IMG/VR virus record: IMGVR_UViG_3300017991_000169
Location: 1-44,390 of that record
Strand: one strand, 5' to 3'
Source: a virus
DNA length: 44,390 nt
A program made the position numbers and the translations under genes. Position 1 is the stretch's first letter; each line of letters starts with the position of its first letter. Below the pieces are notes generated by a model. It worked only from the letters and a program-made list of their open reading frames with translations, made no database searches and was not told the DNA's origin. This document shows, one piece after another, positions 15,100 through 24,167 of the stretch.

Positions 15100-15241
15100 G
15101 CTTTTCCTCCACGATCGTCACATTAGGACAGGTTTCGAGGTACTCCTCCAGGAGCCTGGCCCGCTCGTTCTCTTGGGCCTCCCGGGCCAGACGCTCCTCC
15201 TCCTCGTCCCGCTCACGCGGCGGGTCGATCGGTAGTTCCAT
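15092..15241 (-). CDS. Small acidic/charged helical protein
   Basis: A 49-aa protein with one long charged helix (REREEE-type, residues 8-33) and a CPNVTIVEE end. The ATG at 15241 has GAAGGAG upstream and lies inside the csrA 3' end (29-bp overlap), so the genes are coupled. An acidic partner beside csrA could modulate CsrA, but this is speculation. Confidence 0.6.
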   Translation of the reverse strand: MELPIDPPRERDEEEERLAREAQENERARLLEEYLETCPNVTIVEEKHG

Positions 15242-15398
15242 TCGGATTCTCCTTCTCCACCAGCTCACCACGCACCACGGGGATCTCCCGGGGTGCATCT
15301 ACACCCAGTTTCACCTGCCCTCTGGCCTCGGAGACGACGACCCGGATGCGGCCGTCAATGAGAAGTTCCTGCCCTTGACGTCGTGTCAGAATAAGCAT
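15213..15398 (-). CDS. csrA: CsrA/RsmA-family translational regulator
   Basis: A 61-aa protein carrying the full CsrA fold: MLILTRRQGQELLIDGRIRVVV, then GQVKLGVDAPREIPVVRGELVE. It keeps the RNA-contact residues of strand 1 (L-T-R-R at positions 4-7) and of the GVDAPREIPV-x-R segment. CsrA dimers bind GGA-containing loops in mRNA leaders and change translation. Its RBS (ACGGAGG) itself contains a GGA, and the leader has six more, so autoregulation is plausible. The tail after residue 48 is unlike bacterial CsrA. A phage copy could redirect host gene expression or time early/late translation. Confidence 0.93.
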   Translation of the reverse strand: MLILTRRQGQELLIDGRIRVVVSEARGQVKLGVDAPREIPVVRGELVEKENPNGTTDRPAA

Positions 15399-15530
15399 GG
15401 TTTAGCCTCCGTACTAAATAGCCCGGGACCGGGCCTCCTGCCGCAGCCCCCGGCGTCCTTGTTTAGGCGGCTCCGTGCCGCTCCGTCCGTCACGGCGTCG
15501 TGCCGTGAGGTCCTAGATCAGGATGATGGC
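15399..15530 (-). promoter_or_regulatory. GGA-rich structured leader of csrA
   Basis: Between the first pentamer array and csrA the minus strand has seven GGA trinucleotides in about 130 nt, including the one in the RBS. It also has hairpins such as CACGGC-N4-GCCGTG and a GCCCGG/CCGGGC stem just upstream of the start. GGA in hairpin loops is the CsrA recognition element. This suggests a CsrA-bound leader. Confidence 0.5.
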
Positions 15531-15535
15531 TTCGC

Positions 15536-15719
15536 GTCTTGTCTCGTCCCGTCAGGTCCGGTCCCGTCCTGTCCTGTCGAGTCATGTCGTGTCGCGTCGC
15601 GTCTGGTCGCTGTAATCGATGGATGATGGCTTCGCGTCTCGTCTTGTCGCGTCTTGTCCAGTCCTGTCGCGTCCGGTCGAGTCCTGTCGCGTCCGGTCTC
15701 GTCATGTCGGGTCTCGTCA
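15536..15719 (-). repeat. Pentamer (GACNN) array 1, upstream of csrA
   Basis: Strict 5-bp periodicity: GTC followed by two variable bases on the plus strand (GACNN on the coding strand) for about 31 units. The series is interrupted only by a 33-bp conserved block at 15606-15638 that occupies exactly 30 bp of the register. The dinucleotides vary widely, so this is not a simple microsatellite. It ends at the stop codon of the upstream 200-aa gene. Confidence 0.93.
15606..15638 (-). repeat. 33-bp conserved block, copy 1
   Basis: Plus-strand form GTCGCTGTAATCGATGG followed by ATGATGGCTTCGCGTC, flanked on both sides by GTC units. Three near-identical copies occur at 16568, 17448 and 17603. The right half alone recurs at 15521-15538. 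The core includes the palindrome ATCGAT. Confidence 0.9.
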
Positions 15720-16319
15720 GGCACTAACTGTCTCTGCCTCCAACGGCGACCATTCCAAAGCGTCGATCAGGAAACGGCCGTTGATCCCGCCGTTCTCGAC
15801 CCGCATCGCGCCGAATCCGATGAACCGGCCCATGGCCTCTAAGTGATCGTGGAATATCTTCTCGCTGATCTTCCCGTCGAAGATCAGGACGTCGCCACGC
15901 ATGACCCATTCGTGCAGCGTCGGGAAGATACGCGGCACCCGCTTCGGCCCGCCGTGTTTCCCGTCGCTGGGCACAAACAGCCGGCATCGGACGACCTTGT
16001 CGATCGTGATCGGCTTGTCCTTCCGGTCGAATAGATACAGCTTGCTGTGCGGATTGACACCGGACCGAAAGCGTTTCGTGTACGTCGCCCCACGCTCGCC
16101 AGCCACCTTGCGTTTCAGCCACGTGGCCGCCGATACCAGTCCGTTGGTGATCGCAAATGGGTTGAAGTAGCAATGGCCTTTGTCGTCCACCGGGACCTTC
16201 TGTTGCCAGACCCGCTCCTCCCGCTGGTCATCGGTCTCGTTGTCCAGTTTGCCTTCGGCCACGTGCCGGCCAAACATCAGGTCACTCACGCCCATCAGTT
16301 GAAAACTTGCCTTGAACAT
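15717..16319 (-). CDS. Conserved-type phage early protein, unknown function
   Basis: A 200-aa protein. Notable segments are FQLMGVSDLMFGRHV, a charged region with REERVWQQKVPVDDKGHCYFNPFAITNGLVSAATWLKRKV, then GATYTKRFRSGV, LFVPSDGKHGGPKRVPRIFP and GRFIGFGAMRVENGGINGRF. From memory this resembles a widespread phage protein family without known function; the order of strands and the Gly-rich end recall RRM-like/RAMP folds, which is inference only. An AGGAG RBS sits at the end of pentamer array 2, and another array follows its stop. Confidence 0.72.
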   Translation of the reverse strand: MFKASFQLMGVSDLMFGRHVAEGKLDNETDDQREERVWQQKVPVDDKGHCYFNPFAITNGLVSAATWLKRKVAGERGATYTKRFRSGVNPHSKLYLFDRKDKPITIDKVVRCRLFVPSDGKHGGPKRVPRIFPTLHEWVMRGDVLIFDGKISEKIFHDHLEAMGRFIGFGAMRVENGGINGRFLIDALEWSPLEAETVSA

Positions 16320-16324
16320 CCGCG

Positions 16325-16735
16325 GTCTCCTGTCGTGTCGAGTTCTAGTTACATCGCGTCTTGTCGCATCTTATCTGGTCCGGTCTAGTCAGGTCTTGTC
16401 GCGTCATGTCGCGTCATGTCCTGTCCTGTCGAGTCTCGTCGTGTCGTGTCGCGTCTCGTCTTGTCGAGTCGCGTCCAGTCCCGTCGCGTCGAGTCCCGTC
16501 GAGTCGAGTCGCGTCGAGTCGAGTCTAGCACCGTCGTGTCTTGTCGAGTCGTGGCGTGTCACGTCTCGTCGCTGTAATCAATGGATGATAGCTTCGCGTC
16601 TTGTCGTGTCGCGTCTTGTCTTGTCGCGTCGAGTCCTGTCATGTCGAGTTCAGTCTTGTCAAATCGAGTCGAGTCCTGTCATGTCGAGTCGCGTCATGTC
16701 CCGTCGCGTCGAGTCGAGTCGAGTCGCGTACTTCT
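16325..16735 (-). repeat. Pentamer (GACNN) array 2
   Basis: About 75 units of GACNN on the minus strand with a few point changes (ATC or GGC for GTC) and one short break near 16343-16356. It contains the second 33-bp block. It fills the entire gap between the 166-aa and 200-aa genes and runs directly into the RBS of the latter. Confidence 0.93.
16568..16600 (-). repeat. 33-bp conserved block, copy 2
   Basis: Differs from copy 1 at two positions (AATCAATGG and GATAGC on the plus strand), so the ATCGAT palindrome is lost in this copy. Register with the surrounding pentamers is kept. Confidence 0.9.
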
Positions 16736-16737
16736 CA

Positions 16738-17238
16738 TTACTTCCGGTCGCCGTTGCTCATCAGGTCGATCAGCTTCGGCAGTTCCGGCTGTCGCATGTC
16801 TTCGATCATCTTGCTTTCGGTCAATTTCTTCCGCAGACCGCTGCTACCACCGGTCAGCATCAGACCAAACTGGATCTGGTTCAAGTAGAAGTCGACGCGG
16901 CTACTGGCGTCCAACTTCTCTGGCGAGATGGCGATCGACTCCCGGGCGTGCAGCCGAGCCCGCCGGGCCATCAATCGCACCGCCCGGTTCTGCGAGGTCA
17001 CCTTGTCCGCGTCGCCGAGACACTGCCAGCAGCCCTCGCCGCGGACACGCTCCCACCAGACGCGATATTCTCGCCGTACGTGGCGGATCGCAGTCCGGAC
17101 GTTGGCCGCCCCATTACCCTCGGCACAGTCGCGGCCGACGATCTGTGACATCTCCTCGGTCGTGATGCGGTCGCCCGGGTCGCCCTTCCGCAGGCGTTCA
17201 ATCGCCCGCTGGGTAAACGAACTCAGTGCACCAATCAT
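16738..17238 (-). CDS. Hypothetical protein between pentamer arrays
   Basis: A 166-aa basic, helical protein with RLRKGDPGDRITTEEMSQIVGRDC near the N-terminus (possible HTH) and a second helical half (RLMARRARLHARESIAIS). The pair of Cys in GEGCWQCLG could bind a metal. A strong RBS (AGGAGGTAATC) precedes the ATG at 17238. It lies between arrays 2 and 3. DNA binding, perhaps to the arrays, is possible but untested. Confidence 0.68.
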   Translation of the reverse strand: MIGALSSFTQRAIERLRKGDPGDRITTEEMSQIVGRDCAEGNGAANVRTAIRHVRREYRVWWERVRGEGCWQCLGDADKVTSQNRAVRLMARRARLHARESIAISPEKLDASSRVDFYLNQIQFGLMLTGGSSGLRKKLTESKMIEDMRQPELPKLIDLMSNGDRK

Positions 17239-17447
17239 GATTACCTCCTGTTCGTGTCGTGAATGAAATCGCGTCTTGTCGCGTCGCGTCGGGTCCTGTC
17301 GAGTCTTGTCGCGTCGGGTCCTGTCCCGTCGGGTCCTGTCTCGTCATGTCCGGTCATGTCGTGTCGAGTCCAGTCTGGTCCGGTCATGTCCGGTCTTGTC
17401 TGGTCCCGTCGGGTCGAGTCATGTCGAGTCAGGTCGTGTCGCGTCTC

Positions 17448-17480
17448 GTCGCTGTAATCGATGGATAATGGCTTCGCGTC
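17448..17480 (-). repeat. 33-bp conserved block, copy 3
   Basis: One base different from copy 1 (GATAATGG in place of GATGATGG). Identical to copy 4. Confidence 0.9.
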
Positions 17481-17602
17481 TCGTCTTGTCGCGTCTTGTC
17501 CTGTCCGGTCACGTCACATCCGGTCGAGTCGAGTCAAGTCGGGTCCTGTCTCGTCTTGTCCCGTCATGTCCAGTCCCGTCTTGTCCTGTCATGTCGGGTC
17601 GC

Positions 17603-17635
17603 GTCGCTGTAATCGATGGATAATGGCTTCGCGTC
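17603..17635 (-). repeat. 33-bp conserved block, copy 4
   Basis: Identical to copy 3. Together they suggest that a unit of 25 pentamers plus one block was duplicated inside array 3, after which the dinucleotides diverged. Confidence 0.9.
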
Positions 17636-17715
17636 TTGTCCAGTCGAGTCGCGTCGAGTCGGGGCATGTCCTGTCTTGTCTCGTCGGGTCACGTCGCGTC
17701 ATCTAGTTATCTCAA

Positions 17716-19104: not shown

Positions 19105-19974
19105 TCACTTCCTCACTGCCCCGAGCACGTAAAACTCCCGAGCCCTCCACTTCGTGCCGACGTGGTGGACGTGCTCCGGTTTGGTCTGCACCCGGATGAC
19201 CGGCGAGCCGAACTCTTTGGCATGCTCAACGGTTGGGCCGAGGTACAGCCCCGGATGACACTCCGTCTCCGGACAGCACGAGAACCAGTCCGCACTGTAG
19301 TGGCGGCCGTCCTGGTACTCGTCGATGTGTCCGGCCTCGCGTGTCCGGTACCCGATCACGTAGTCCCCGTCCCGCTCGAACCCCTCCACGTCGCCGTTCG
19401 GTTGGTTGAGCGGGTCAAGGCAGGTGCCAGTCAGGTTGGCCCTGATCAGGTTGGCCTCCATCAAGTTGGTGTCGATCAGGTTGGCGTCGCACAGGTCGGC
19501 GGCGCTCAGGTCGGCCCTGATCAAGTTGGCGTCCCTCAGGTCGGCGTCCCTCAGGTTGGCCCCCCTCAGATCGGCCCCGATCAGGTTGGCCTCGATCAGG
19601 TTGGCCTCGCGCAGGTCGGCGGCGCTCAGGTCGGCCCTGATCAGGTTGGCGTCCCTCAGGTCGGCGTCCCTCAGGTTGGCGGCGCTCAGATCGGCCCCGA
19701 TCAGGTTGGCCTCGATCAGGTTGGCCTCGCGCAGGTCGGCGGCGCTCAGGTCGGCCCTGATCAGGTTGGCCTCGCGCAGGTCGGCGGCGCTCAGGTCGGC
19801 CCTGATCAGGTTGGCGTCCCTCAGGTCGGCGTCCCTCAGGTTGGCGGCGCTCAGGTTGGTTCTGAACAGGTTGGTTCTGAACAGGTTGGCCTTCCGCCCC
19901 ACCCCGTCCTTGCATCCCCCGTCGAACCACGCCCTGTGCTTGGCCAGGATCTCCGTTAGCTGCGCTGCGTCCAT
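19105..19974 (-). CDS. Pentapeptide-repeat protein with C-terminal domain
   Basis: A 289-aa protein. After a short helical start (MDAAQLTEILAKHRAWFDGG) there are about 30 tandem A(D/N)LxxA-type pentapeptides (about residues 28-180), predicted to form a right-handed quadrilateral beta-helix. The last 110 residues are a separate domain (DYVIGYRTREAGHIDEYQDGRHYSADWFSCCPETECHPGLYLGPTVEHA), a type I know from other phage pentapeptide proteins. Some pentapeptide proteins mimic DNA and protect gyrase; here that role is only possible. RBS GGAGG supports the ATG at 19974. It follows the helicase gene by coupled overlap. Confidence 0.86.
   Translation of the reverse strand: MDAAQLTEILAKHRAWFDGGCKDGVGRKANLFRTNLFRTNLSAANLRDADLRDANLIRADLSAADLREANLIRADLSAADLREANLIEANLIGADLSAANLRDADLRDANLIRADLSAADLREANLIEANLIGADLRGANLRDADLRDANLIRADLSAADLCDANLIDTNLMEANLIRANLTGTCLDPLNQPNGDVEGFERDGDYVIGYRTREAGHIDEYQDGRHYSADWFSCCPETECHPGLYLGPTVEHAKEFGSPVIRVQTKPEHVHHVGTKWRAREFYVLGAVRK
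19501..19740. repeat. 120-bp tandem duplication inside the pentapeptide gene
   Basis: Positions 19501-19620 and 19621-19740 are almost identical (about 117 of 120 bases), equal to eight pentapeptide units each. Partial copies continue to 19860. The near identity at third codon positions shows recent expansion. Confidence 0.92.
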
Positions 19975-19975
19975 G

Positions 19976-21346
19976 TCATTCCTCCAGGGCTCCAACGAAC
20001 TCCCTCAATTCGTCCTGTCCGGTCCACACTGTCGCCTTCGGTTGGCTGTCGAAGCCAACCAGCGACCGCGACCACCAGAGCTGCACCATACCGATCTCCC
20101 CATTGCGGTTTTTCCGCACGATCCACTGGGTTGACTCGGTCTCCGGTGGCGGGTCGCCGTCCTGTCGGCTCTCTGGCTCACGGTGCAGAAACATCACCAT
20201 GTCAGCGTGCTGCTCAATCGCACCGCTCTCCCGTAGATGATGCAGGTCAGGTGGCCCGTTGACCGCCTGCCGGTTCAGTTGGCAAAGGCAGAGGATCGGT
20301 ACCTCCAACTCCCGGGCCAGACACTTCAGGTCCCGGGCCATCGAACCCACCTGTTCCTCTCGGCTGACTCGCCGGTCGGCCGGCTGTAGTAGTTGCAGGT
20401 AGTCGACGACCATCAATCGCAGACCCTCCCGACTGACCCGTGTAGCCGCTCGGCGAATCTGGGCAGTCGAAAGACCCGGCCGGTCATCCAGATAGAGTCG
20501 TGCCTTGGCGAGTGCGTTGCTGTGACGGACCAGTCTCGACACGTCCGACGCCACAAGCCGTCCGCTGCGGACCTCTTGTGAATTCACGCCGGCCTGGCCA
20601 CAGAGTAACCGGGTGACGATCTCGCTGGCCGCCATCTCCGCCGAGGCGAAATAGGTCACCCGCCCCTGGGCAGCGTTGTCCTCGGCAATCTGGGTTGCAA
20701 TGGCCGTCTTCCCGACACCCGGCCGGGCAGCCAGGACACACAGCTCCCCAGGGAATAGCCCACCGAAGAACGTGTCGAAGTCGGCAAACCCCGTCGGCAA
20801 CCCAAGCCCCCGCTTCCCGGCCATCGCCTCATCAATGGCGGCGATCGTCTCCTCGACGATCTCGTTGAACGGCCGCGGCCCAGTTCGGTCCGGGATCCCG
20901 ATCTTCGCCAAAATCCGCTCGGCCCCTTCGAGGATCTCCCCGGCATCCTCTTCGAGGTAGGCCCGTCGCAAGAGGTCGCCGCCGACATGGATGATCCGCC
21001 GCAGTGCCGCCTTCTTGGCCACGATCTCGGCATAGTGATCCGCATGGGCGGCGTAGGGCACCGCCGTGGCCACCTCCAGGAGGTAGGCCATCCCACCGAC
21101 GGCGTCGAGCTGACCCGTGGTCCGGAGGTGGTCCTTGAGGATCTGGGCGTCGAGTCGACCGCCGTTGCGACAGAGGGTCCGCATCGCTGTGAAGAGCCGG
21201 CCGTTCCGCTCGACGTGAAAATCCTTAGCGGTGATCACGGCCTCGATGTCGGCCATCCGGCCCGGGTCCAGCAGGATCGAGCCCAAGACGGCCTTCTCGG
21301 CCTCTTCGTCGTGCGGCGGCATCCGGTCCAGGAGTTCAGCATCCAT
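19976..21346 (-). CDS. dnaB: Replicative DnaB-type helicase
   Basis: A 456-aa protein, the normal length for DnaB. The N-terminal domain (PHDEEAEKAVLGSILLDPGRM) interacts with primase and loader. The RecA-like domain has Walker A (AARPGVGKTA, about residue 205), Walker B (LMVVDYLQLLQ, about 305), the LCQLNRQ sensor motif, and the DLHHLRESGAIEQHADMVMFLHR motif with its arginine finger region. It unwinds DNA at the phage fork. It follows the replication initiator gene by 7 bp with a GAGGAT RBS. No separate phage primase is seen, so host DnaG is probably used. Confidence 0.95.
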   Translation of the reverse strand: MDAELLDRMPPHDEEAEKAVLGSILLDPGRMADIEAVITAKDFHVERNGRLFTAMRTLCRNGGRLDAQILKDHLRTTGQLDAVGGMAYLLEVATAVPYAAHADHYAEIVAKKAALRRIIHVGGDLLRRAYLEEDAGEILEGAERILAKIGIPDRTGPRPFNEIVEETIAAIDEAMAGKRGLGLPTGFADFDTFFGGLFPGELCVLAARPGVGKTAIATQIAEDNAAQGRVTYFASAEMAASEIVTRLLCGQAGVNSQEVRSGRLVASDVSRLVRHSNALAKARLYLDDRPGLSTAQIRRAATRVSREGLRLMVVDYLQLLQPADRRVSREEQVGSMARDLKCLARELEVPILCLCQLNRQAVNGPPDLHHLRESGAIEQHADMVMFLHREPESRQDGDPPPETESTQWIVRKNRNGEIGMVQLWWSRSLVGFDSQPKATVWTGQDELREFVGALEE

Positions 21347-21353
21347 AGCATCC

Positions 21354-22250
21354 TCACGGGTTAACGAGCGGGGGGAGTGGAGACGAGGTGGGCTCTTGCT
21401 TGGGTGGCCGCTTGAGCTTCAATTCCAGCCCGTTGCCCAACTGCTTCCGCAGTTTCTCGGGACTGAGCACGTTGGCCCGCCAGAAGTCGTCCTGGTTGGC
21501 CCGCCGGAAGACGTCCCGGATCTCGGCGTGGGTCCGGCCGTCCTGCTCTCGCATCAGCCGGATCGTGTTGGCCCACTTGGTCCATGGAGGCGTCTTGGCA
21601 TTCGGTAGGATTTTCTGGATCAAAGAGAACATCCACTTTGCAACAACCATATCCTCGTCCGCGTAGCGAAGCCTGCGCGGACTAGCTTCTTGTACTTCTT
21701 TCTTTTCTTCTTCTTGGGTTGGGACTGGGTTAGGACTGGGTTGGGACTGGGTTGATTTGTGGGTTAGATGTCGGCCATTTGATGTTTTGTGTGTGTCGCA
21801 AGGCATGTGGCTATAACGACTTGCGACTGGGTTGGGACTGGGTTGATTTGTGGGGGCCGTTTTGGCAGTATGGGTAACGGCGGTAGCGTAGGGGGCACTT
21901 TCCGGTGGGTTAGGACTGGGTTGGACGGCAACATTACGTACTTGGTAACTCTCCCAATTGCAAATACTTAGGTGCGTTCCACGGTGGGTTGGCTTCTCTA
22001 CGACATTTCCACACAAAACTAGTCTTTCTAGGTGGGTACGTAGCGTTTGACGACTGAGACCGTGGGTTAGCGCAAATTTTCGCTGCGAGATGACCAACTC
22101 GCCCGGCTTGAGAATCTGTCCGGTGATCAACTGTCGTTCCTCCCAATTGGCCTCAAGCAGGATCGCTATCCAGACTTTGAGCGTGACTGCGTCTTCAAAG
22201 ACCGCAGACTTGAGCAGCTTTCTGTGGAGCTTGATCCAATCGCCGGCCAT
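21354..22250 (-). CDS. Replication initiator / DnaD-like protein
   Basis: A 298-aa protein. The N-terminal winged helix (WIKLHRKLLKSAVFEDAVTLKVWIAILLEANW...LITGQILKPGELVISQRKFA...LSRQTLRTHLERL) matches the replisome organiser type found before dnaB in many phages. A low-complexity Ser/Pro/Thr linker follows, with repeated QPSPNP units (about residues 110-185). The C-terminal domain (WMFSLIQKILPNAKTPPWTKWANTIRLM) resembles DnaD/loader tails. It probably binds the origin and recruits DnaB. The ATG at 22250 was chosen over a TTG at 22286; neither has a strong RBS. The repeated linker DNA (GGGTTGGGACT type) may be part of an origin. Confidence 0.75.
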   Translation of the reverse strand: MAGDWIKLHRKLLKSAVFEDAVTLKVWIAILLEANWEERQLITGQILKPGELVISQRKFALTHGLSRQTLRTHLERLVLCGNVVEKPTHRGTHLSICNWESYQVRNVAVQPSPNPPESAPYATAVTHTAKTAPTNQPSPNPVASRYSHMPCDTHKTSNGRHLTHKSTQSQPSPNPVPTQEEEKKEVQEASPRRLRYADEDMVVAKWMFSLIQKILPNAKTPPWTKWANTIRLMREQDGRTHAEIRDVFRRANQDDFWRANVLSPEKLRKQLGNGLELKLKRPPKQEPTSSPLPPLVNP

Positions 22251-22273: not shown

Positions 22274-22876
22274 TTAAGTTGTCCAAATCACCTTCTGTTG
22301 GCGGCGCCCGTTGAAACTGCTGTACCGTCGTCGCCAGTCAAAAACCCCCAATGTGTCGGGGTCGATCTCGAACCGCAGTAGCTGGACAAGCATCCCTAGA
22401 TCGATTGGCTTCTTGTCCCACGCTATGTGTGCACTATTCTCTGGGTCTGTCCCGGAGAGTTGCAGCAAATGCCCGCCGAACATCCGCAGACGAATGTTTC
22501 GCTTGTTCAGACGACTCCATGCCACCGTCAGTGGTGTATGGTCCGTCGCGTGCAACCCTTTCTTGTCGCCGTGCATATTTCTGCGACGATTCCGGAGCAC
22601 TTGCGAAAACAATGACAGCGTGTCTCGTTGCGCCAGCGTGGTACCGGCTGAATGCGTTTTGACTTCGATAAACATCAGGCATTGGATCAATCTGGACGAA
22701 CGCTTGTCGCTCACCATCATGTATTTGTGCAACAACACGTCGCAGTCGAACCGTACTATGCCGTCCTCGCTTCGCAGCCCATGGTGGTTGCGCATCCACC
22801 GTTCAAAGGCCGTTTCTTCCGTGTGACTCCGTCCGCAATGCGGACAGTGAACTAGGCCGCTATACTGCCGGGTCAT
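22274..22876 (-). CDS. Putative PD-(D/E)XK-type protein with CxxC
   Basis: A 200-aa protein starting with a zinc-knuckle-like CPHCGRSH. In the middle, VRFDCDVLLHKYMMV is followed by MFIEVKTHSAGTT. The order D...E-x-K with flanking strands is that of PD-(D/E)XK nucleases and suggests an endonuclease. The rest is basic. Its place between a methyltransferase and a replication initiator could mean a restriction-like or nicking function. The start at 22876 overlaps the methyltransferase stop by 17 bp. No exact family is recognised. Confidence 0.65.
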   Translation of the reverse strand: MTRQYSGLVHCPHCGRSHTEETAFERWMRNHHGLRSEDGIVRFDCDVLLHKYMMVSDKRSSRLIQCLMFIEVKTHSAGTTLAQRDTLSLFSQVLRNRRRNMHGDKKGLHATDHTPLTVAWSRLNKRNIRLRMFGGHLLQLSGTDPENSAHIAWDKKPIDLGMLVQLLRFEIDPDTLGVFDWRRRYSSFNGRRQQKVIWTT

Positions 22877-24167
22877 CCAGGCGACTCCGTGCCGTCGCAA
22901 CCGCGTCCTTGTCGCGGTCGTATCCAATCCAACGCCGGTCAAGTTGTTTTGCCGCAAGAAGCGCCGTACCGCTACCGCAGCAGGGGTCACAGACGATACC
23001 CCTCTTGGGACAGAGGGGTGCAATAAAGTGGGCCGCCTCTGCAACCGCTTGTTGCCAGGGATGATCGGCCTTCTCTTTGCCACCGGAGACCACATCCCGG
23101 AACCAGTCCCAATCGACTTTCAAAGGAGGTCGATAGGCGGCAACAACGGGTTTCCACCCAGTCCGCACGTGGAACTTGCGAAAACGTGCATCGCCACCAG
23201 TATGCAAGACACAGAACGTCCAGGCGTACTTCAGATGCTTCGCAATGCCGGTCATCACGTCCGGGAGATGGGCCTTGCCGGAATAGGCTAGCAACCAACC
23301 GCCGGGGACCAGCTTGTCCGCGGCAAACGCAGCCAGGTCCTCATAAAGGCTTGCCGATTCCTGGTCGTACGGCGGATCGGTCAAAATGAGGTCCACCGAT
23401 CCAGCCGCCAGCTTGACCGTCCGGAAGTCGGCCACCTTGATACCGTTGTCTCCCCTCCGCTTTTTGGCCGCGGACGCCCTGGCCTTCTTTGTCTCGGCCA
23501 CTTTCTTCTCGGCCGTGACGATGCGGGACACCTGGGATTGGTTGATCCCGTAGTCGGCAGCGACCTGCGCCTGGGTCTCCCCCGAGTTGATCCGTTCAAC
23601 GATTCGTGGCTTCTGTTCAGCAGGTACCTTGACCTTGGCGTCCGGGGCTGGAGTATGCGTAATGCCAATACTGGCATTACGCATACCCTTCTCGGCCAGC
23701 CAAACCGCAACGGTTTGCCGTGCCACCCCAAGGGCACCCGCCACCTTGGTCTGCGTCCATTTCTTTGCGTCTTCCTGGCGGAGTGCCTTGGCGACGGCCT
23801 GCATCTGTTTCCTCGCCTTGGCCTTTTGGGTCGGCGACAGGTTCCGCCGGCAGAAGTTGACCCGGAAGACAAAGGCTTTCTTTTCGGCCTCGGTCAGACC
23901 ACGGATCACCCGTGTCTTGGCCTTCGGATCAATCTTCTGCCGGTGATGGCCATCCAGGATGTTGCCATCCTCGTCAACGAGGACTGGATCTCGCTGGCCA
24001 TTGGTTTTGATGTCAGCCTTCAACGCATCGAACTCTTCGGTCGATAACGGAGGCAACAAGTCCGCAAAGGGAGTCGCCATAGGGCAATCCGTGCCAATCG
24101 TGTCAGTTGGAGCACCAACTGGTCGCCGCAGAGGCAGCAAGAAGGTGCTTAGGTTTGGGAAACGCAT
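22860..24167 (-). CDS. ParB-domain / N4- or N6-DNA methyltransferase fusion
   Basis: A 435-aa protein. Residues about 30-110 are a ParB/Srx-like nuclease-fold domain (EEFDALKADIKTNGQRDPVLVDEDGNILDGHHR). Two HTH segments follow (QTKVAGALGVARQTVAVWL; TQAQVAADYGINQSQVSRIV). The C-terminal 190 residues are a beta-class amino methyltransferase, with DLILTDPPYD (motif IV) before CDPCCGSGTALLAAKQLDRRWIGYD (SAM motif). Such fusions methylate phage DNA at sites chosen by the HTH/ParB part. The promoter TTGACA-N17-TACACT is at 24196-24224 and its transcript would begin about 22 nt before 24167, which supports this ATG over the one at 24080. A perfect palindrome is inserted in the linker. Confidence 0.9.
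   Translation of the reverse strand: MRFPNLSTFLLPLRRPVGAPTDTIGTDCPMATPFADLLPPLSTEEFDALKADIKTNGQRDPVLVDEDGNILDGHHRQKIDPKAKTRVIRGLTEAEKKAFVFRVNFCRRNLSPTQKAKARKQMQAVAKALRQEDAKKWTQTKVAGALGVARQTVAVWLAEKGMRNASIGITHTPAPDAKVKVPAEQKPRIVERINSGETQAQVAADYGINQSQVSRIVTAEKKVAETKKARASAAKKRRGDNGIKVADFRTVKLAAGSVDLILTDPPYDQESASLYEDLAAFAADKLVPGGWLLAYSGKAHLPDVMTGIAKHLKYAWTFCVLHTGGDARFRKFHVRTGWKPVVAAYRPPLKVDWDWFRDVVSGGKEKADHPWQQAVAEAAHFIAPLCPKRGIVCDPCCGSGTALLAAKQLDRRWIGYDRDKDAVATARSRLDDPAV
23653..23686. repeat. 15-bp perfect hairpin inside the methyltransferase gene
   Basis: GTATGCGTAATGCCA, loop ATAC, TGGCATTACGCATAC. It encodes GMRNASIGITHTP in the linker between the ParB/HTH part and the methyltransferase part. 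The self-complementary form and the linker position suggest an inserted mobile palindromic element (REP-like) tolerated in frame. Confidence 0.85.

Follow-up and report, generated by a model that had tools for sequence, protein, structure and literature searches.

The closest described system is VIPR (Viral Interference Programmable Repeat), a CRISPR-like weapon of phages against phages, which was reported in a bioRxiv preprint of 2026 (April/June; PMC13142463). According to the main text of this preprint, Vipr is a phage RAMP of about 20 kD with a single RRM and a glycine-rich loop. It is accompanied by the accessory gene vap, whose product is DNA-binding in VIPR types II, VI and VII. The guide RNA, vrRNA, comprises about 100 nt with 9-16 YNNGG repeats, followed by a constant 3' tail. 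The NN dinucleotides pair with target DNA, whereby one base, mostly the wobble base, is skipped per step, and competing phages are silenced. The fixed triplet is given as GGY, and 'a related consensus' is also mentioned, with reference to fig. S17. Escherichia phage SUSP1 is the example of type II. VIPR has been proposed to resemble an ancestral stage of CRISPR and to be a very small programmable DNA binder.

Class 1 CRISPR-Cas (Cas7/Csm3 with crRNA) resembles the locus studied here in its RAMP fold with a glycine-rich loop, in the periodic gripping of RNA and in a guide capped by a constant handle. However, our locus has one small RAMP, and its variable bases are two adjacent ones in each unit of five. 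TRAP (MtrB) leader sites likewise have a 5-nt period with three fixed and two free bases, but the triplet is (G/U)AG instead of GAC and the protein fold differs. In the TRAP binding sites, (G/U)AG-NN, the NN is not known to carry information.

In this study, we describe an array locus in a 44,390-bp IMG/VR virus record with terminase, portal, tape measure and DnaB genes (the window; the whole stretch of DNA that was analysed) and compare it with related phage loci. The terminase relatives (about 31% identity) point to no host. We are highly confident that the locus is a phage VIPR locus in a GAC version. A preliminary description of this DNA knew of no described element of this exact form; the preprint, in its main text, describes one.

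Anatomy of the locus

Three intergenic runs of GTCNN are found at 15536-15720, 16378-16727 and 17273-17702, reading GACNN on the minus strand, which is the strand of the neighbouring genes. GTC-NN-GTC steps number 154 over the three arrays as compared to a mean of 0.8 and a maximum of 4 in 500 shuffles of the same composition. Each of the 16 dinucleotides is represented among the NN, TA and AA only rarely, and the entropy of NN is 3.6 of 4 bits. Four copies of a 33-bp block lie on one strand (15606-15643, 16568-16605, 17448-17485 and 17603-17640, flanking units included; chance expectation 0), and its two upper copies are 155 bp, i.e. 31 units, apart. The arrays, the wide range of NN and the four blocks in one orientation had all been noted in the preliminary description and were confirmed, and a fifth, truncated copy of the block was added. 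The features of the locus are, in the order of the minus strand:

17631-17702, minus strand: vrRNA guide tract 1, 14 GACNN units
17606-17630, minus strand: vrRNA 3' tail copy 1, core of the 33-bp block, GAAGCCATTATCCATCGATTACAGC
17476-17605, minus strand: vrRNA guide tract 2, 26 GACNN units, one degenerate
17451-17475, minus strand: vrRNA 3' tail copy 2
17271-17450, minus strand: vrRNA guide tract 3, 36 GACNN units without interruption, continuing into the vap leader with its ribosome-binding site AGGAGG (about 17244-17249)
16738-17238, minus strand: vap, predicted accessory protein of 166 aa (profile relatives adjoin arrays; AlphaFold model; fold matches)
16596-16725, minus strand: vrRNA guide tract 4, 26 units, mid-tract triplets degenerate
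16571-16595, minus strand: vrRNA 3' tail copy 3
16376-16570, minus strand: vrRNA guide tract 5, 8 units and, after a 5-bp break, 30 further units, continuing into the vipr leader (AGGAG)
15717-16319, minus strand: vipr, predicted RAMP-fold protein of 200 aa, phrog_4652, glycine loop GFGAMR at residues 168-173
15634-15718, minus strand: vrRNA guide tract 6, 17 units
15609-15633, minus strand: vrRNA 3' tail copy 4
15534-15608, minus strand: vrRNA guide tract 7, 15 units
15490-15533, minus strand: fifth, truncated tail (GCGAAGCCATCATCC / GAAGCCATCATCC, about 15520-15535), then the hairpin TCACGGC-ACGAC-GCCGTGA, closing the last array
15213-15398, minus strand: csrA homologue (PF02599), a neighbour outside the system

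The names vrRNA guide and tail are given on the reading that the pentamers are very probably the guide repeats of vrRNAs and the 33-bp block their 3' tail. The tracts end in nearly the same handle, usually GACRAGACGCGA, ahead of a tail or a gene leader. The arrays ahead of the 166-aa and 200-aa genes have the end handle ..GACAAGACGCGA in common and then pass into the ribosome-binding sites. It had been stated that each array lies immediately before one gene; this holds for these two genes, whereas about 137 bp and the hairpin lie between the last array and csrA. The truncated fifth tail with its hairpin is a probable 3' end of the array. The tail is near-invariant between its copies and folds weakly, so a structure of the window tail finds no support here. 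An Rfam search over the locus gave no credible match, no other cas gene was seen near the locus, and a CRISPR array of identical repeats and unique spacers was absent in a repeat search of the window.

Three further regions of the window were recorded. A gene for a pentapeptide-repeat protein (19105-19995, minus strand; PF00805; 15-bp repeats at 19431-19889) adjoins a DnaB-like helicase gene (19976-21346). A 435-aa protein (22860-24167, minus strand) matches phage families of two kinds, ParB-like and DNA methyltransferase. At 21715-21926, several 11-bp tandem repeats, TGGGTTGGGAC / TTGCGACTGGG, lie inside 250 bp.

Vipr, Vap and pentamer arrays in other phages

The AlphaFold model of the 200-aa protein (pLDDT 94.5) was compared with the PDB using Foldseek. 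The best 50 of 88 matches at E<=0.001 were all class 1 CRISPR RAMP entries (best E 1.6e-6; Z up to 12.7 across about 164 residues), and type III and VII Csm3/Cas7 and other RAMPs were among the matches listed. The glycines and the arginine of the glycine loop are invariant. A profile built from metagenomic phages, without any named phage, retrieved SUSP1 Vipr at E 1.6e-13 (database size 1e6) and matched five further named-phage Viprs. By predicted fold and profile homology, the 200-aa gene thus encodes Vipr, a RAMP of one domain whose relatives include Cas7, the backbone protein of class 1 CRISPR. The 166-aa protein (pLDDT 93.2) is modelled with an N-terminal winged helix and a helical tail and has winged-helix fold matches; SUSP1 Vap was weakly matched by its profile, likewise from metagenomic phages, in one pass (E 0.0017) and clearly in iteration. 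As judged from model and profile, this gene is Vap, a predicted winged-helix protein. SUSP1, which carries GGTNN arrays around vipr and vap, served as positive control.

A scan of IMG/VR for ten GTCNN units yielded 85 stretches, about a quarter of them uniform microsatellites and the remainder with diverse NN. The G+C content of the contigs with diverse stretches is about 36-70%. Such stretches are usually divided into tracts by blocks of 30-40 bp and flank one gene of 500-680 bp. These genes fall into two families, those of the 200-aa and 166-aa proteins of the window. The vipr family was present in 44 of 59 viral loci with diverse GACNN arrays, many of these 59 stretches being short, and in none of the 139 loci whose GACNN repeats are uniform or poor in NN diversity. 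When loci are fetched by protein alone, without pattern selection, they have pentamer arrays with the triplets GAC, GGC, CGC, CAC or CGT. An array lies within 3.5 kb in 72 of 103 distinct loci, in most of them with the triplet read on the vipr coding strand. Nine loci (L051, L070, L029, L034, L045, L047, L063, L084 and L091) have GACNN opposite to vipr and thereby a layout different from the remaining loci. The exact 33-bp block had no match in other IMG/VR contigs; of the preliminary proposal to look for block and periodicity in related phages, it is the pentamer form that was found again. A scan of a genome collection for GACNN arrays gave mostly uniform microsatellites and at least three diverse loci, at least one of them with vipr, a count that underestimates cellular VIPRs.

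The window thus shares with VIPR a phage locus with a RAMP of about 200 aa, a small predicted DNA-binding vap product, intergenic arrays of a fixed triplet and hypervariable NN, and a constant 3' tail; both its proteins are detectably homologous to SUSP1 Vipr and Vap. It differs in its triplet, GAC versus the published GGY; the strict GGY pattern is absent, and the main text of the preprint also allows for a related consensus. Across vipr relatives the triplets form a continuum of GAC, GGC, GGT, CGC, CAC and CGT. Besides tracts of 14, 15 and 17 units there are tracts of 26, 30 and 36 units (tract 5 has 38 in all if its break is ignored), and these exceed the 9-16 repeats in the main text of the preprint. 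Up to seven tracts surround both genes, vap is located upstream of vipr (downstream in 76 of 84 relatives), and the tail is a different, weakly folding one. Measured against the main text of the preprint, the kind of locus is known since April 2026, and the GAC triplet, the long tracts and the clade of the window are a variant.

On the Vipr tree, about ten changes of the triplet's middle base are seen. The residue aligned with A171 in the glycine loop is R or D in 26 of 26 loci with middle G, and S, A, V, F, Y, M, C or Q in 31 of the 35 middle-A loci in which the residue is present. In an independent-pair test, residue 171 agreed in 5 of 8 pairs and column 136 in 6 of 8.

Content and turnover of the probable guides, and the search for targets

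In two groups of loci (L061/L081 and L093/L095/L248) the Vipr proteins are 99% identical, and no common NN run exceeds two units. Guides common to different phages, in the same or reverse-complement sense, were not found; copies occurred within one phage only. From the sequences compared, guides are replaced wholesale and not by slippage, because near-identical Viprs share no longer NN run and guides are otherwise unshared between phages. This bears out the earlier argument that slippage cannot explain variable NN between fixed triplets. One phage (L050:6426-7413) has two guide segments of 9 NN units, each in two arrays, which suggests guide copying or recombination.

The NN of 152 GAC guides, fitted with one reading direction per guide, fit codon positions 1-2 best, ahead of positions 2-3 by 32 nats and of 3-1 by 192; this raw effect is largely base composition, and the excess over shuffles is the relevant part. 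The advantage was reached in 0 of 200 shuffles of second letters within guides and in 1 of 200 shuffles of units among the guides of a locus. The smaller set of G-triplet guides gave no clear excess by itself. The codon-like usage of NN agrees with the published one-base-skip, wobble-aligned code and is no proof of it.

Four window guides and one guide of a relative, decoded with a skip of 1, gave match numbers at chance level and no convincing extension in a scan of IMG/VR, and a search with skips of 0-4 within the collected loci gave no excess at any skip length. One match in a terminase small-subunit gene (L345:3940-3962, minus strand) covers 10 of 10 units of the window guide at 15634-15718, up to the handle and with the skips on wobble positions; given 13 starting matches it has a p of about 0.1, near chance level.

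Alternative readings and proposed mechanism

The pentamer RNA might be a regulatory platform, a decoy or attenuator for the RAMP protein or CsrA in the manner of the TRAP-trp leader, without DNA targeting. The TRAP binding site has the same 5-nt form, and the arrays lie in the leaders of vap and vipr and near csrA. However, such a platform gives no reason for the renewal of NN while Vipr stays 99% identical, nor would it make NN codon-like and coherent within guides; the neighbouring protein is a RAMP and not TRAP. Because csrA is present in only 2 of 103 vipr loci, CsrA is probably incidental and unrelated to the arrays. We regard a regulatory platform as very improbable.

Still less credible is an element acting at the DNA level, i.e. 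a set of iterons, an origin or partition site, or an array that a protein reads at each half turn, even though the 5-bp spacing is strict and Vap is a predicted winged-helix protein. In one relative (L103:5107-7430), seven vrRNA tails share a strongly covarying hairpin of 12-13 bp, with 94.4% of cells paired versus 66.5% in shuffles; both sides have changed in 10 of 13 pairs, and many pairs are G-U on the GAC strand. This speaks for an RNA, and the RNA is the GAC strand, because these G-U pairs would be C-A mismatches on the other strand. The L103 tails are a good model for tail structure. Furthermore, the triplet differs between close vipr relatives, and uniform GACNN repeats never carry the genes. 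An origin or partition role and recombination fuel, both considered in the preliminary description, are without support.

Microsatellite slippage or an assembly artefact, suggested by the wide occurrence of uniform GACNN repeats in genomes, is refuted: uniform repeats have one or few NN and no vipr (0 of 139) as opposed to the high NN entropy of the window, 99% identical Viprs share no NN run of more than two units, and the architecture recurs, with other NN, in independent assemblies.

The reading as a VIPR locus leads to the following mechanism. The minus strand would be transcribed into RNAs of (GACNN)n with a constant 3' tail, and Vipr would polymerise along this RNA with one subunit per pentamer, both steps being carried over from the preprint. 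With the constant GAC held by Vipr, the two bases of NN would remain available for pairing with double-stranded DNA. Following the published rule, each NN pair would match two target bases and skip one, mostly the codon wobble. The complex, aided by the putatively DNA-binding Vap, would then block the transcription of genes of competing phages or satellites. That the GAC version works by this full mechanism, with skip rule and silencing of rivals, we consider likely. Points against the VIPR reading are the triplet GAC in place of GGY, tracts of 26-38 units, the weak fold of the window tail and the lack of a convincing natural target among the IMG/VR matches of the five decoded guides. The earlier suggestion that something reads every fifth base would be met by Vipr, whose RAMP gene adjoins the arrays; a structured RNA or a platform for a multimeric protein had also been suggested, which is compatible with this mechanism as far as it goes and stops short of guide RNAs for the neighbouring 200-aa RAMP.

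Three things go beyond the main text of the preprint: GAC as the triplet, guides running to as many as 36 units, and a residue of the glycine loop that follows the middle base of the triplet; GAC may already be listed in fig. S17 of the preprint. The locus would be a VIPR machine in a phage far from the characterised ones of E. coli and Pseudomonas, and one with a different fixed triplet. Across the dozens of phages compared, there is target-free evidence for the wholesale replacement of guides and for a codon-like writing of the pairs. It is a tentative and rather doubtful proposal that GAC-reading VIPRs form a distinct large branch in which residue 171 sets the middle base of the triplet (R/D to G; S/A/V/F/Y/M/Q usually to A) and guide tracts may be joined to give as many as 36 units in a row; we advance the role of residue 171 with reserve because another column did better in the independent-pair test. 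If the proposal is true, VIPR variants would differ in their RNA alphabets, and cross-reaction within one cell would not be inevitable; since a residue that may set the alphabet is named, the orthogonality of VIPRs is directly testable.
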